The position numbers and the translations under genes are program-made. From Acidobacteriota bacterium (GTDB lineage Bacteria > Acidobacteriota > Terriglobia > 20CM-2-55-15): 38,976 nt of DNA. The DNA lies in NCBI GenBank assembly GCA_023265365.1, contig JAHFTY010000013.1:1-38976 (forward strand), given 5' to 3'. The notes under the pieces are model-generated. The model saw nothing but the letters and a program-made list of their open reading frames with translations, was not told where the DNA came from and ran no database searches. Positions 3 through 37,262 of the stretch are shown piece after piece. The first letter of the stretch is position 1; each line of letters starts with the position of its first letter.

Positions 3-146
3 AACTACTTCCTTGAAAAGACTCATCTGGCCAGTCCCATGTTCAGAAATGTCAGATCCCTTACCGTATTGTCGAGTTTGAAATCATTGAACCTGCGCTT
101 GTGGGACGAAGAGGGGCGCGAACTGGTCGGATACGGGGATGGCTGA
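3..146 (+). CDS. C-terminal end of an unidentified protein (partial)
   Basis: A reading frame is open from the left edge of the window to a TGA at 144-146 and gives 47 residues ending in LRLWDEEGRELVGYGDG. The composition looks like real protein, and the frame stops 12 bases before the next start, as expected for a neighbour in the same transcription unit. The tail loosely resembles the C-termini of some membrane fatty-acid desaturase or hydroxylase proteins, but none of their histidine boxes lies in the window. That idea is only a guess, and no function is assigned. Confidence 0.4.
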   Translation, partial: NYFLEKTHLASPMFRNVRSLTVLSSLKSLNLRLWDEEGRELVGYGDG

Positions 147-31247: not shown

Positions 31248-33329
31248 ATGAAAGTCATGGCAAGGAACACAAAGCTGTACATCTCGGGTTTCATCCTGCT
31301 GATGCTCGCCATCCTTGTTTTCGTCCAGCAGGCATTCGATCTGAACCCCCTTGTCAGTCATTCCTCCGCGAGCCAGATCGTCCTGCTCTACACGCTGTCG
31401 ACCCTGGTCTTCCTTGTTTTGATGGTCTTCGGCTTCGTTCTTGCCCGCACGTTGTTCAAGGTATGGACCGAGCGCAAACAACAGAAGCCCGGCTCGAAGT
31501 TCAAAACCAGCCTGCTGGTGACGCTCATTTCGCTGACGCTGGTTCCGGCCGTCCTCCTGTTTGCGTTCGGTCTCGGACTGATCAATCGCAGCATCGACAA
31601 ATGGTTCAGCGTGCCGGTGGACAGCATCCGGGACGCAACCAAGGAACTGGGCGACCAGTACCGGATCGAATTCGAAGGAATGGCCCGCAGCACGCTTCGT
31701 TATATCGCCATGGAACTGCCGCACGACCTCGATCCGGCCCGGCGCACGTTCGGTCTCGAGGCGCTTTTGCTCCTGACGCCGGACGGGAGGGTCGTGGAGT
31801 CGTCGGCTGAGGCGGACATCCTGAACCCTGAAATGTTGAAGGCCATCCGGATCGCGCTCGGCGACCGCGAAGAGGTGGTCATTCAGGCCGAGCCGTACTG
31901 GATTGGCGCCCGGCGCGTTCAGACCGCACAAGGCGTGGAAGTCCTGGCAGCGATTTTCCCGACGCCTCAGCGCATTCTCGACCTCACCGCGCAAATCGCC
32001 GGCCAGCGCGAGATCTATGCCACCCTGATTCAGAACCGGCTGTACTACAGGGACACGTACATTTACGTGCTCGCCCTGATGACCGTTCTGCTTCTGTTCG
32101 CAGCAGTCTGGATCGGCCTGAATCTTTCCAAGCGAATTACCCTGCCGATCGAAGCTCTGAGCGTGGCCACACGCGAGATCTCCGCGGGCAATCTCGACTA
32201 CCGCGTCGACGTCATCGCCGAGGACGAACTGGGATTGCTCGTCAAACTCTTCAACGACATGGCCGGGCGGCTCCAGGGCACCACGGCGGAACTCGAAGCG
32301 CGGCGGCGTTACACCGAGATCATTCTCGAAAGCATTCCGACCGGCGTGATTTCCTTCGACACCGGCCTGCGCATCAACACCATGAACCGCGCCGCCCACA
32401 GCATGTTCTCGAAGGACGATGCCACGCACCTCGACCAGGTATTTACCGGAGAAGACCTTACGGCAATTCAAGACGTGCTTTCTGCCGTGCAGGAGAGCGA
32501 GAGCGGGGCCGTGACGCGAGAAATCGCGTTTGCCGGGCCCAGCCGCCCCGCCCAAAGCGCGGTGACCGCGAGCCGGCTGACGGCGGGAGGGTTTGTCCTG
32601 GTTGTGGAGGATCTGACCGAAGTCGTTCGAGCGCAGAAGGCGAACACCTGGCGGGAAGTGGCCCGCCGGCTCGCGCACGAAATCAAAAATCCGCTCACGC
32701 CCATCCAACTCTCCGCCGAGCGCATCAGCCGTAACATTTCACGTCTGCCTGCGGCATCGCCCAAGGTCACCACGGTGATTGAAGAGTGCGTTGAAGCCAT
32801 CATTCAGGAAGTGTCCAGCCTGAAGCGCCTCGTCGATGAATTCGTCCGCTTCGCGCGCCTCCCGGCCGTGTCCCGTGTTCCCAACAGCATGAAGGAACTC
32901 GTCGACCGGACGATGGCGCTGTACGAAGACCGGCTGAACGGCACGCGCGTTTCCCTGGAAGTGCCGGACGATCTGCCGCCGGTGCTGATGGACTCGCTTC
33001 AAATGAAGCGCGTTCTCGTCAACGTGCTCGACAACGCACTGGAAGCGCTGAACGAGGAACCCGTGCAGGAATTGCGCATCAGTTGCGAACTGGCGCGAGA
33101 CAATACGATGGCGCGATTGACGATTGCGGACACCGGAAGAGGCATCGCCGCGGAGGACCGCGAGCGGCTCTTCACACCCTATTTCTCGACACGAAAGAAC
33201 GGGACGGGCCTCGGCCTCGCCATTTCGAGCCGCATTGTCGCCGATCATGGCGGCTACATCGGAGTCGAACCGAATTCACCAAAGGGCACGCGTTTTGTCA
33301 TTGAGTTACCGATATGCCAAGAATCCTGA
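31248..33329 (+). CDS. ntrY: NtrY-type membrane sensor histidine kinase
   Basis: The 693-residue kinase has helices near residues 10-28, 43-68 and 88-112, a large periplasmic region, another helix at about 272-295, then a HAMP domain (about 290-342), a PAS domain (350-460), His477 in RRLAHEIKNPLTPIQLSAERI, and an HATPase domain with NVLDNALEAL, DTGRGI and GTGLGL. HEIKNPLTPIQLSAERI is the NtrY signature. The usual role is redox, nitrogen or envelope signalling through NtrX. ATG 31248 or ATG 31257 could be the start. Its end overlaps ntrX by 16 bases. Confidence 0.93.
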   Translation: MKVMARNTKLYISGFILLMLAILVFVQQAFDLNPLVSHSSASQIVLLYTLSTLVFLVLMVFGFVLARTLFKVWTERKQQKPGSKFKTSLLVTLISLTLVPAVLLFAFGLGLINRSIDKWFSVPVDSIRDATKELGDQYRIEFEGMARSTLRYIAMELPHDLDPARRTFGLEALLLLTPDGRVVESSAEADILNPEMLKAIRIALGDREEVVIQAEPYWIGARRVQTAQGVEVLAAIFPTPQRILDLTAQIAGQREIYATLIQNRLYYRDTYIYVLALMTVLLLFAAVWIGLNLSKRITLPIEALSVATREISAGNLDYRVDVIAEDELGLLVKLFNDMAGRLQGTTAELEARRRYTEIILESIPTGVISFDTGLRINTMNRAAHSMFSKDDATHLDQVFTGEDLTAIQDVLSAVQESESGAVTREIAFAGPSRPAQSAVTASRLTAGGFVLVVEDLTEVVRAQKANTWREVARRLAHEIKNPLTPIQLSAERISRNISRLPAASPKVTTVIEECVEAIIQEVSSLKRLVDEFVRFARLPAVSRVPNSMKELVDRTMALYEDRLNGTRVSLEVPDDLPPVLMDSLQMKRVLVNVLDNALEALNEEPVQELRISCELARDNTMARLTIADTGRGIAAEDRERLFTPYFSTRKNGTGLGLAISSRIVADHGGYIGVEPNSPKGTRFVIELPICQES

Positions 33330-34624
33330 TCGTCGACGATGAGCCCGGAATCCGGCAGTCGCTGAAAGGAGTCTTCGATGACGAGGGCTTCGCCACCGAC
33401 GCTGTGGCGACCGGGGAAGAGTGTCTCCAGAAGGTTGCTGACGGTTCCTACGATCTCATCCTCCTCGACATCTGGCTGCCCGGAATCGACGGTCTCGAAA
33501 CGCTCCGCCGCGTTCGCGAGAAATCGCCGGACACCCATGTGATCATGATTTCAGGCCACGCCACGATTGCAACGGCGGTCAGCGCGACCAAACTCGGCGC
33601 GTACGATTTCATCGAGAAACCGCTGTCGCTGGAACATACGCTGCTCACGGCCCGCAACGCGCTGTCCCACCGGCGGCTCGAACAGACGAACGACATGCTC
33701 CGCCATGAAATCGAGGAGCGATTCCACATTGTCGGCGAGAGCATCCCGGTCAAGGCGCTTCGCAAACAGATCGCGATCGTTGCGCCGGCGAACAGCCGCG
33801 TGCTGATCTATGGAGAAAGCGGCACCGGAAAGGAACTGGTCAGCCGCAACATCCACTTCCTGAGCAACCGGTCTCACGGACCATTCGTCGAGGTGAACTG
33901 CGCCGCAATCCCGGAAGAAATGATCGAGAACGAACTGTTCGGCGACGCCAAGGAATCCCGAAAAGGCAAGTTCGCCCTCGGCGATGGAGGGACCCTCTTC
34001 TTCGACGAAATCGGCGACATGACCCTCAAAACCCAGGGCAAGGTCCTGCGCGCCGTCGAGGAGCAAAGCTTTCAGCCGATCGGCGCCTCCGCACCCGTTC
34101 GCGTCGACGTCCGCGTCATCGCCGCGACGAACAAGAACCTTCCCTCTGAAATCGCGGCCGGCCGTTTCCGCGAAGATCTGTTCTACCGCCTGAACGTGAT
34201 TCCCTTCTTTGTTCCACCGCTCCGCGAGCGCCGCGAAGACATTCCGGTTCTGGCCCGGTACTTCATGCGCGTCTTCTCCGTCGAACACGGCCGCAGCCCC
34301 AAGGACTTTAACGGAGACGCCCTCGACCTGATGTCGGACTATTCCTGGCCCGGCAACGTTCGGGAATTGCGCAACGAAGTCGAACGCCTCGTCATCATGG
34401 TTCAGGACGCGGCCATTCAGGCCTCCGATCTCTCGCTTCCCAATGGCGCGGTTTCCTCGAAAGCTTCCACACTTCACGAAGGCCGCGCCCAATTCGAAAA
34501 GGAGTTCATCCTTTCAAAACTGAAGGAGAACAACTGGAACATCTCCCAGACCGCCCGCATGCTCGGCCTCGAACGCAGCTACCTGTACCGGAAAATGAAG
34601 ACCTACGGCATCGAAAAACAGTAG
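33314..34624 (+). CDS. ntrX: NtrX-type response regulator without the sigma-54 contact loop
   Basis: The 436-residue regulator has a receiver domain with Asp52 and Lys102, an AAA+ domain with GESGTGKE at 167-174 and GTLFFDEIGD from 226, and a C-terminal Fis-type helix-turn-helix (ISQTARMLGLERSYLYRKMKTYGI). Where activators have GAFTGA, this protein goes from ELFGDAKES straight to RKGKFALGDGG, so the loop 1 motif is missing. It should therefore be unable to remodel sigma-54 holoenzyme and may act by binding DNA as a sigma-70 regulator or repressor. It overlaps ntrY and pairs with it. Elsewhere in the family, loss of this loop (R. capsulatus NtrC, TyrR) goes with sigma-54-independent action. 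Confidence 0.92.
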   Translation: MPRILIVDDEPGIRQSLKGVFDDEGFATDAVATGEECLQKVADGSYDLILLDIWLPGIDGLETLRRVREKSPDTHVIMISGHATIATAVSATKLGAYDFIEKPLSLEHTLLTARNALSHRRLEQTNDMLRHEIEERFHIVGESIPVKALRKQIAIVAPANSRVLIYGESGTGKELVSRNIHFLSNRSHGPFVEVNCAAIPEEMIENELFGDAKESRKGKFALGDGGTLFFDEIGDMTLKTQGKVLRAVEEQSFQPIGASAPVRVDVRVIAATNKNLPSEIAAGRFREDLFYRLNVIPFFVPPLRERREDIPVLARYFMRVFSVEHGRSPKDFNGDALDLMSDYSWPGNVRELRNEVERLVIMVQDAAIQASDLSLPNGAVSSKASTLHEGRAQFEKEFILSKLKENNWNISQTARMLGLERSYLYRKMKTYGIEKQ

Positions 34625-34675: not shown

Positions 34676-35614
34676 TTATGGGGTGACTCCGTAGAATTTT
34701 TCGAGATGTCCGATCGCGCTCATCCCCATCGCGTTCACGGCCTCGGCCGCATTTCCGGCGATGTGTGGCGTCGCAATGAGATTCGGCAGGGAAAGAAAGC
34801 TCAGGTCGTCCGGCGGCTCCTCCTCATACACGTCGATGGCGGCGCCGGCGATCCGGCCCGTCCGAAGAGCGTCCTTCAAATCCGCCTGATTCACGACCTG
34901 TCCGCGCGAGGTATTGATCAGGAACGCGGACGGTTTCATTGTTGAAAGCGTTTGCCGGTCGATCATGTGTCGAGTCTCGGAGGTCAGCGGTGTATGGATC
35001 GTCAGGATGTCCGACTCCCGAAACAGCACTTCCTTTGAAACTTCAATGAGGCCATGCGCCATGTAGTAACCGGCTTGCGGAATGATGTCGTTCACCAGGA
35101 TCCGGCAGTGAAAAGGCTCGATCAATCGGACCAGTTCCTTGCCGGCAAATCCCACTCCGACAATGCCCACCGTCTTTCCCGTCAACAAGGTCCCGCCGTC
35201 TTTCATCCAGGCGCCGGTTTTCAGGGCGTTTGAGGTTACGTAGAGATTGCGGCTGAGCGCCAGCATGAAACCCAGAGTCTCTTCCGCGACCGAAAGCCGG
35301 TTCACCCCTCCGGTCCAGCCGATCGCGACGCCGTGGCGGCGGCAGGCATCGGTGTCGATGTTATCCAGCCCCACGCCGTACTTGGCAACGATCCTCAAGT
35401 CCGGGCACCGGCCGAGGAGTTGCGCACCCACCGGTTCCATACCAACCAGCAGCGCATCGGCTCGTCCGAGGAAGTCCGCCATTTGAGTCTCCGTCAGGCG
35501 TTCGCCCGTGGCGTTGAAGAAGCTCTTCGGAAAACTCTGCAGCAGCCGGGCCCGCAGAAATTCGTTTTTGGAAAACGTGATGGAACTGACGCCAATGCGT
35601 CTGTCGCTGGTCAT
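34676..35614 (-). CDS. D-2-hydroxyacid dehydrogenase (phosphoglycerate dehydrogenase-like)
   Basis: This 312-residue NAD-dependent dehydrogenase has the GIVGVGFAGKELVRL cofactor motif, the catalytic Arg in NTSRGQVV, Glu in DVYEEEPPD, and His in TPHIAGNAAEA. The KYGVGLDNIDTDACRRHGVAI segment is the D-3-phosphoglycerate dehydrogenase form of the substrate-domain motif. There is no ACT domain, so it is a short-type enzyme. It may be a serine-pathway enzyme or act on another 2-hydroxyacid. I chose ATG 35614, as the extra N-terminus up to 35701 has no family similarity. It is divergent from the pheA leader. Confidence 0.88.
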   Translation of the reverse strand: MTSDRRIGVSSITFSKNEFLRARLLQSFPKSFFNATGERLTETQMADFLGRADALLVGMEPVGAQLLGRCPDLRIVAKYGVGLDNIDTDACRRHGVAIGWTGGVNRLSVAEETLGFMLALSRNLYVTSNALKTGAWMKDGGTLLTGKTVGIVGVGFAGKELVRLIEPFHCRILVNDIIPQAGYYMAHGLIEVSKEVLFRESDILTIHTPLTSETRHMIDRQTLSTMKPSAFLINTSRGQVVNQADLKDALRTGRIAGAAIDVYEEEPPDDLSFLSLPNLIATPHIAGNAAEAVNAMGMSAIGHLEKFYGVTP

Positions 35615-35711
35615 ACGGAAGCCGCATTCTCGCACACGGGAAGGCCCGGGCGGCTCGACGAATTCCATGCGCCGTTGCCTGCCTCGTGGTGAATTCGTCA
35701 AAACTTAGCGG

Positions 35712-35740
35712 TTGACAGACGTGGGGCCGCTGGGCAAGAT
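35712..35740 (+). promoter_or_regulatory. Sigma-70 promoter of the pheL-pheA leader
   Basis: TTGACA (35712-35717) is a perfect -35 element. After a 17-base spacer comes CAAGAT (35735-35740), a fair -10. Transcription would start near 35747, about 8 bases before the leader-peptide ATG at 35755, so the leader message has almost no 5' untranslated region. Confidence 0.65.
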
Positions 35741-35754
35741 GTGGCCTCGTCATC

Positions 35755-35823
35755 ATGAATCAACGAACCGGTTTCACGTTTAGCCCCTACTTTTATTTTT
35801 TTCCCTGCGGGGAAAGGGCGTAG
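35755..35823 (+). CDS. pheL: Phenylalanine leader peptide controlling pheA
   Basis: A 22-codon frame begins at ATG 35755 and ends at TAG 35821-35823. Its core is GFTFSPYFYFFP: five Phe and two Tyr codons in ten positions, then CGERA. It sits 8 bases after a predicted transcription start and 24 bases before a terminator in front of prephenate dehydratase. This is exactly the arrangement of enterobacterial pheL-pheA, where ribosome stalling at Phe codons prevents termination. There is no Shine-Dalgarno sequence, so initiation would be near-leaderless. The peptide itself probably has no function after translation. Confidence 0.85.
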   Translation: MNQRTGFTFSPYFYFFPCGERA

Positions 35824-35862
35824 TGGTCTAAACGCATAGCGGACCACAAGGGCCCGCTCCCC
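35800..35862 (+). promoter_or_regulatory. Competing leader RNA hairpins (anti-antiterminator and antiterminator)
   Basis: TTTCCC (35800-35805) can pair with GGGAAA (35810-35815). Alternatively GGGGA and GGGC (35809-35813 and 35816-35819) can pair with TCCCC and GCCC in the 5' arm of the terminator (35858-35862 and 35852-35855), 9 pairs with a small internal loop, and so prevent the terminator. A third hairpin, GTGGTC/GACCAC (35823-35828 and 35842-35847), lies inside the antiterminator loop. The two states exclude each other, as attenuation requires. Confidence 0.65.
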
Positions 35863-35891
35863 CAAAATGGGGAGCGGGCCTTTTTCTTTTT
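35848..35891 (+). terminator. Rho-independent terminator acting as pheA attenuator
   Basis: A 12-base perfect stem, GGCCCGCTCCCC with its complement, surrounds a six-base CAAAAT loop and is followed by TTTTTCTTTTT. The stem extends by G-T and A-T pairs on the outside. It ends 10 bases before ATG 35902 of pheA, so it can only work as a regulated stop in the leader of that gene. Confidence 0.92.
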
Positions 35892-35901
35892 GGGAGCGTT
35901 T

Positions 35902-36765
35902 ATGCCCGATAATCTTGTTTACGAAAGACAGACCTACGATGCGGCCTTCCAGGGAAGTCATGGCGCATTCAGCGAAGACGCCGCCGGGCTCCTGCTCCCG
36001 CCCAATCCGGAACTTTTGCCATGCGCGCGTCTCGAAGACGTTTTCGAGGCGGTCCATCGCGGCGTGGCGCGTTACGGCGTGATTCCCGTGGAGAATACGC
36101 TCGCGGGGTCGGTGCATCAGTCCTACGACCTGATGTCGGAATACGACCTCACCATCGTCGGCGAAGCGATCTCGCGCATCGACCACGGCCTGATCGGCCT
36201 GCCGGGCTCGTCGCTGGAAAACATCCGGCGGGCGCTTTCGCATCCGGTCGCCCTGGCGCAATGCGAAATGTTCTTCCGGAGGAATTCGTCCATCGAGCCG
36301 GTTTCGGTATACGACACGGCCGGCGCCGTCCAGGCGATTCTCAAAAACGGCGATCCGGCGTCCGCCGCCATCGCAAGCCGCCGCGCGGCGGAAGTCTGGG
36401 GCGGGGTGGTCCTGCTGGAGTCGGTTCAGGACCATCCGGAGAACTACACACGGTTCCTTTTGATTTCCAAACCGATGGAAATGGTGCGGCCGCAGACCGT
36501 GAACTACAAACGAACGATCGTTTTCCGGATCGCGAACGAGCCCGGCGCCCTTTGCCGCGCGCTTCAGCCGTTCATGATGCATGGAGTGGACGTGGCCCGG
36601 ATCGAAAGCCGGCCCGTCAAAGGGTCTCCGTTCGAGTACCTGTTTTATCTCGACCTGGTGGGCACGTCCGATTACGACCAGATGTATCAGGCGGTGGAGG
36701 AACTGCGAAGCCAGGCTTTGTCGCTGCGGGTTCTCGGCATGTACCCGCGCGCGACGCAAACTTAA
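35902..36765 (+). CDS. pheA: Prephenate dehydratase
   Basis: The 287-residue monofunctional enzyme makes phenylpyruvate from prephenate for phenylalanine synthesis. The catalytic domain has AFQGSHGAFSEDAA (15-28), VIPVENTLAGSVHQSYDLM (60-78), DTAGAVQ (138-144) and the key TRF motif (183-185) in NYTRFLLI. A C-terminal ACT domain from about 204 has RIANEPGALCRAL and the Phe-binding IESRP at 234-238, so feedback inhibition by Phe is expected. GGGAG lies 5 bases before ATG 35902. Expression is predicted to be attenuated by the leader upstream. The stop shares bases with that of the convergent yajQ. Confidence 0.96.
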   Translation: MPDNLVYERQTYDAAFQGSHGAFSEDAAGLLLPPNPELLPCARLEDVFEAVHRGVARYGVIPVENTLAGSVHQSYDLMSEYDLTIVGEAISRIDHGLIGLPGSSLENIRRALSHPVALAQCEMFFRRNSSIEPVSVYDTAGAVQAILKNGDPASAAIASRRAAEVWGGVVLLESVQDHPENYTRFLLISKPMEMVRPQTVNYKRTIVFRIANEPGALCRALQPFMMHGVDVARIESRPVKGSPFEYLFYLDLVGTSDYDQMYQAVEELRSQALSLRVLGMYPRATQT

Positions 36766-37262
36766 TTCGTGCGGTAATTCGTGAACTGCAACTCGATGCC
36801 GAAGTCCGACTGACGCAGAAGCGCGATCGCTTCCTGAAGCAGGTCGCGGCTCTTGCCGCTCACGCGCACGAGGTCGCCCTGGATCGAAGCCTGGACTTTG
36901 ATTTTGCTGTCCTTGATCTTCTTGACGATCTCCTTCGACTTCTCCACCGGAATTCCGGACTGGATCGTCACCTCCTGCCGCGACGTCGAACCGGCGGCCG
37001 GCGTGATGGTTCCATAGGTGAAGTTCTTCAACGGAACTTTCCGCTTTGCGAGTTTCTGCTGAAGGATCTCGACGACGGCGCGGAGTTTATAGTCGTCTGA
37101 ACTGGTGATGATCAGTTTCTTGTCTTTCTCGTTCAGCTCGACCTCCGACCTGGAGTCCTTCAAATCGAAACGTGTTTGAAATTCTTTTCTTGCCTGCTGA
37201 ACCGCATTCAGAACTTCAGGCATATCCACGACGGAAACCACGTCAAAACTGTTGTCAGGCAT
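36762..37262 (-). CDS. yajQ: YajQ-family nucleotide-binding protein
   Basis: The 166-residue protein matches the UPF0234/YajQ family over its full length: SFDVVSVVDMPEVLNAVQQA at the start (given in part), TRFDLKDSRSEVEL, ITSSDDYKLRAV, VEILQQKLAKR, GIPVEKSKEIVKKIKDSKIKV and VRVSGKSRDLLQEAI. Some homologues bind c-di-GMP (Xanthomonas XC_3703); others are described as nucleotide-binding. With PilB MshEN domains in the same window, a c-di-GMP link is possible but not shown. The start has a TATACT box 6 bases upstream and no Shine-Dalgarno site, suggesting a leaderless message. It overlaps pheA tail to tail by 4 bases. Confidence 0.95.
   Translation of the reverse strand: MPDNSFDVVSVVDMPEVLNAVQQARKEFQTRFDLKDSRSEVELNEKDKKLIITSSDDYKLRAVVEILQQKLAKRKVPLKNFTYGTITPAAGSTSRQEVTIQSGIPVEKSKEIVKKIKDSKIKVQASIQGDLVRVSGKSRDLLQEAIALLRQSDFGIELQFTNYRTN

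Follow-up and report, generated by a model that had tools for sequence, protein, structure and literature searches.

A probable ribosome-mediated attenuator responding to phenylalanine supply upstream of pheA in an acidobacterium, and its counterparts in the phylum

Contig C307, from a 4.72-Mb genome in 362 contigs, carries the stretch of DNA analysed here, 38,976 nucleotides long and termed the window. It contains pheA, the sole prephenate dehydratase (PDT) gene of this genome, which encodes a monofunctional enzyme of 287 amino acids with an ACT domain (Pfam PDT 1.2e-54, ACT 2.1e-9). The closest named relatives of this PheA are from 'Candidatus Sulfopaludibacter sp. SbA3' and an 'Acidobacteria gp5' MAG, which identifies the host as an acidobacterium. 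The surroundings look ordinary: a histidine kinase/sigma-54 response regulator pair lies upstream (31248-34624, forward strand), and a DUF520 (YajQ-like) gene lies antisense to and downstream of pheA (36762-37262, reverse strand). The region preceding pheA contains a compact series of elements:

34676-35701, opposite strand to pheA: D-2-hydroxyacid dehydrogenase gene, the upstream neighbour of the leader
35712-35740, forward: predicted sigma-70 promoter (TTGACA 35712-35717, 17-nt spacer, CAAGAT 35735-35740)
35755-35823, forward: leader peptide ORF MNQRTGFTFSPYFYFFPCGERA (ATG 35755, 22 codons, stop TAG 35821-35823)
35796-35805, forward: segment 1 UUUUUUUCCC, comprising the final Phe/Pro codons, which in RNA folds pairs with segment 2 and thereby protects the terminator
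35809-35819, forward: segment 2 GGGGAAAGGGC, codons 19-22, an antiterminator strand that mimics the 3' arm of the terminator
35824-35847, forward: spacer hairpin GUGGUC...GACCAC from folds, 24 nt, after the stop codon
35848-35892 with the T-rich run, forward: intrinsic terminator (stem 35848-35883, hairpin to 35884, 6-nt loop)
35850-35862, forward: segment 3 GGGCCCGCUCCCC, the terminator 5' arm, which forms the antiterminator with segment 2 or the terminator with segment 4
35869-35880, forward: segment 4, within the terminator stem
35902-36765, forward: pheA, starting at ATG 35902, which is preceded by GGGAG

The leader ORF, which contains GFTFSPYFYFFP, has the composition given in the original prediction, with five Phe and two Tyr codons among its 22. 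All seven fall within the ten codons 7-16 (Phe7, Phe9, Tyr12, Phe13, Tyr14, Phe15 and Phe16). A scan of the 39-kb window on either strand for short ORFs that have four or more Phe within 12 codons and a strong terminator behind them gave this locus alone, and only one short ORF has at least 7 Phe plus Tyr in 12 codons. TTT encodes four of the five leader Phe residues, compared with 36 TTT against 129 TTC in ten further ORFs from the window, of which six were Pfam-checked. The first 20 leaders collected from this and other genomes show the same bias (56 TTT versus 23 TTC), which is only suggestive as a sequence trend because the codon comparison mixes genomes.

The sigma-70 promoter proposed originally is present as far as its two hexamers are concerned, with a -35 box matching at 6/6 positions. 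The -10 box CAAGAT matches TATAAT at only 3/6, for which reason a consensus promoter scan rejected the site. We infer from sequence that the pheA leader uses this promoter; the leaders of relatives mostly have better promoters upstream, of the same TTGACx-16..18-TAxxxT type. The predicted transcription start near 35747 lies about 8 nt 5' of the leader ATG and would leave a 5' UTR of only ~8 nt, and the Shine-Dalgarno sequence of the leader is weak (-3.7 kcal/mol). Most relatives have 5' UTRs of 20-45 nt, compared with the ~8 nt predicted here. A 5' UTR this short would require near-leaderless initiation, and the sequence suggests that the window leader is translated in this manner. A precedent is found in Sinorhizobium meliloti, where the trpL transcript begins at its own AUG (PMC7298713). 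A leader ORF that opens at, or right beside, the 5' terminus of its transcript would be common to both cases, although S. meliloti trpL serves a Trp operon and the short 5' UTR of the window is a prediction only.

The terminator with T-run before the prephenate dehydratase gene, originally described as having 12 base pairs, is indeed present, these 12 being the GC-rich core of a 15-bp stem. Its hairpin has a minimum free energy of -32.6 kcal/mol (z=-5.9), and 0 of 200 shuffled sequences folded as well; the entire leader fold reaches z=-3.6 against shuffles. Folding also bore out the proposed mutually exclusive pairings: UUUCCC in segment 1 can pair with GGGAAA in segment 2, the 1:2, 2:3 and 3:4 helices exclude one another, and the spacer hairpin joins segments 2 and 3 into one extended antiterminator. 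To represent ribosome positions, we folded RNA that ended before segment 4 and left free only the part downstream of the positioned ribosome, assuming that the ribosome covers 13 nt counted from the A-site codon. About nine 2:3 pairs formed when Phe7, Phe9 or Phe13 occupied the A site, eight for Phe15, four for Phe16 and none for the stop codon, in agreement with the proposal that stalling on earlier Phe codons frees segment 2 for the terminator 5' arm. The same RNA free of ribosomes folded mostly into 1:2. In the full-length RNA the 3:4 terminator was always favoured at equilibrium, so the switch must be kinetic. The 2:3 helix of the window contains a 2-nt internal mismatch, and its complementarity taken alone is not exceptional for its GC content (p=0.16 versus shuffles).

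The locus thus combines a Phe-rich leader ORF, a terminator, a 2:3 antiterminator and a downstream gene that makes the sensed amino acid. From these elements we infer translation of the leader, pausing of the ribosome on it, and both the direction and the extent of control, as follows. With Phe plentiful, the ribosome would reach the stop codon at 35821, where segment 2 would be covered or re-paired with segment 1 behind the ribosome; with segment 2 masked, segments 3 and 4 would pair and transcription would stop before pheA. When charged Phe-tRNA is scarce, the ribosome would stall at the Phe codons, covering segment 1 and leaving segment 2 free to pair with segment 3 before segment 4 is made, and polymerase would continue into pheA.

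This scheme resembles that of pheL-pheA in E. coli and other enterobacteria, which likewise comprises a Phe-rich leader peptide, alternative 1:2, 2:3 and 3:4 helices, a terminator and pheA. The two systems differ in several respects. Segment 2 of the window is embedded in the final leader codons (-13 to +1, counted from the stop), whereas that of E. coli pheL follows the stop codon; the window leader has 22 amino acids and includes Tyr codons, compared with 15 amino acids for pheL; a spacer hairpin lies between segments 2 and 3, unlike in E. coli; and the window pheA is monofunctional, while the E. coli gene encodes a chorismate mutase fusion. The original label 'pheL-type' is therefore apt for the mechanism but not for the RNA family: the element did not match Rfam RF01859 (Phe_leader) at its gathering score and was absent even at E<=10, while the E. 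coli pheL control scored 132.3 bits. Among full-length attenuator layouts, the best similarity below threshold was to RF00506 (Thr_leader, E=0.061), which scored 21.7 bits where the gathering score is 55. The leader is devoid of a Thr/Ile codon run, and this similarity is mostly due to the GC-rich terminator.

For comparative evidence, a scanner that recovered E. coli pheL as positive control was run upstream of pheA in relatives from the same family, class and phylum and in the best GTDB matches. A Phe/Tyr leader followed by a terminator was found before aromatic genes at 20 other loci, all among Acidobacteriota. Downstream genes at these loci were named from their translated sequence alone, that of L061 being judged by spacing only:

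Phe/Tyr leader and terminator in family f8: L028 MHRLSCPFIFFFNFSPAAWEVG; L037 MTSSMHRTGFSFAFRFFTGGAG; L046 (by inspection)
Before chorismate mutase-pheA, in f5, f11 and further acidobacteria: L035, L061, L126, L136, L146, L150, L152, L154, L078
Directly before pheA: L084, L216, L217, L219, L224
Before DAHP synthase: L090
Before chorismate mutase fused to DAHP synthase-like sequence: L206
Before a DJ-1/PfpI-like gene, then pheA: L214 (G699, family f22)

One of the leaders before chorismate mutase-pheA (L078) belongs to a named species, Pyrinomonas methylaliphatogenes (K22). The positions of L090 and L206 give the attenuator the appearance of moving between aromatic operons, and the arrangement at L214 hints that its DJ-1/PfpI-like gene belongs to the regulation of the Phe branch. 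A possible weaker Phe leader (3 Phe), ~175 nt upstream of pheA, was also observed in a member of the Gemmatimonadota (L069), where a strong terminator stands directly before the gene. Phe-rich ORFs at L131 (Dehalococcoidia), L011 and L193 were dismissed because they formed part of longer genes or because their stems were weak and atypical.

Two layouts are apparent among these loci. At the window locus and in f8, segment 2 extends as far as the stop codon, where a terminating ribosome would mask it directly. The segment 2 of f5-type leaders is situated 27-51 nt upstream of the stop, and masking would need a strong 1:2 hairpin re-formed behind the ribosome. Strong 1:2 hairpins, in which Phe/Tyr codons pair with the next codons, were observed at L061, L126, L136, L146, L150, L152 and L154, an example of the f5-type 1:2 hairpin being CGCUUCUCC/GGGGGGAAGCGG in L136. 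The window/f8, f5-type and E. coli layouts are versions of one mechanism.

Statistical controls over the collected loci support the pairing scheme. In a swap test with near-duplicates removed, segment 2 showed better pairing to the arm of its own terminator than to arms from other loci in 17/17 non-redundant cases, with a permutation p of 5e-5 that is the floor of 20,000 permutations; remaining relatedness should make this 2:3 test conservative, since relatives share arms. An earlier version restricted to the 12 nt at the start of the terminator arm, in place of the whole arm, gave p=0.003. Complementarity of segments 1 and 2 across loci was likewise significant (p=0.0009). Shuffling segment 2 alone gave p values from 0 to 0.22 for individual loci, as the segments are very GC-rich. 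Among 216 distinct upstream regions, a Phe-rich short ORF followed by a strong terminator occurred 12 times on the gene strand versus twice on the reverse strand, and thirteen other residues gave 0-4 forward and 0-1 reverse occurrences in the same regions.

Could the hairpin instead end an upstream transcript, or merely insulate a pheA that is expressed from elsewhere, with the Phe-rich ORF being fortuitous? GC-rich intrinsic terminators are common and the promoter before the leader is weak by consensus, but we regard this reading as very improbable: the neighbouring gene at 34676-35701 is on the opposite strand, so no nearby co-directional gene needs a terminator, a Phe-rich ORF with a terminator was found just once in the window, and the pairing of ORF and terminator recurs before aromatic genes at the 20 other loci while being rare on the reverse strand. 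Hardly credible, in our assessment, is control of the terminator by a trans-acting factor or metabolite (a protein-bound antiterminator, riboswitch or T-box) that would make leader translation irrelevant. Leader codons were reported to be irrelevant in some actinobacterial leuA leaders (PMC1262725), and the weak leader start of the window would fit such a model. Against it, no Rfam family matched at gathering score and none was credible at E<=10; moreover, unlike in a riboswitch, the loci retain Phe/Tyr content and 1:2:3:4 complementarity although sequence and stems vary freely among them.

A further alternative concerns the signal and is compatible with a Phe attenuator, namely that the leader does not respond to Phe alone but to both amino acids together, or chiefly to Tyr. 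The Tyr codons Y12 and Y14 are interspersed among the Phe codons, many relatives are equally rich in Tyr and Phe (e.g., RFYYFAFTYRYPF in L061 and WRYYDFTYCYP in L154), and some leaders precede chorismate mutase or DAHP synthase genes common to both pathways. For the window we nevertheless consider this variant unlikely, as its leader contains five Phe versus two Tyr, the final stalling codons are Phe15-Phe16, and pheA makes Phe only. Taken together, the anatomy, the ribosome-position folds, the Pfam identity of pheA and the comparative evidence all agree on a ribosome-mediated, translation-coupled transcription attenuator, through which pheA very probably responds to charged tRNA-Phe and, probably, also to tRNA-Tyr.

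The distribution of the leader is patchy. In the window's own family, leader and terminator were absent before pheA in 8/8 other genomes in which pheA was found, and pheA was missing from the incomplete assemblies of two further family genomes. The upstream comparison suggested with the original prediction revealed no terminator lacking a Phe frame; the leaderless family members are without the terminator, too. In a PheA tree, the window PheA groups with its own family, with L090 (leader present, long branch) as sister to that family, and at least 8-9 leader gains or losses are required. Tree and patchy presence together imply that the leader is either ancestral with frequent loss or was gained repeatedly. 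At sequence level, the 'RTGF[T/S]F' shared by L037 and the window and a common post-stop spacer of 19-34 nt favour common descent. The 'new or independent example' that was envisaged for this lineage is hence part of a set scattered over several Acidobacteriota groups with a shared layout, for which one origin with many losses and several origins both fit. Within the window's genome, pheS, trpE, a leuA-type gene and hisD have no comparable leader, and scans before pheS and trpE (for Trp codons) in this genome and its relatives yielded no convincing candidate, the few matches having weak stems or being far upstream; the Phe branch may be the only one under attenuation in this genome. Tentatively, and with slightly less than even confidence in the whole, we propose a family of attenuators that is specific to this phylum and senses Phe and Tyr together, and that Acidobacteriota either inherited from an ancestor or acquired repeatedly. 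Its members would carry the antiterminator strand inside the leader ORF and would relocate among the operons of pheA, chorismate mutase-pheA and DAHP synthase, the window copy being translated from an almost leaderless mRNA.

Classical attenuators outside Proteobacteria have likewise been predicted by comparison in Actinobacteria, for trp operons, leuS and trpS (PMC1262725), in a survey that did not find a phenylalanine RNA element (PMC1262725). Of the attenuators predicted in Acidobacteria, almost none had associated functions according to another survey (PMC2965389). An acidobacterial pheA attenuator was not found in the literature searched; as this search was incomplete, we do not claim priority for the phylum. 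The mechanism of Phe attenuation is itself classic, and what is added here is its wide scatter through Acidobacteriota. P. methylaliphatogenes K22 offers a named species in which the attenuator could be tested. The loci also constitute a comparative set for the study of attenuator gain, loss and transfer between operons despite little conserved primary sequence. Together with its relatives, the element described here would give acidobacterial attenuators a function, in which the supply of Phe and Tyr governs the operons of pheA, chorismate mutase and DAHP synthase.
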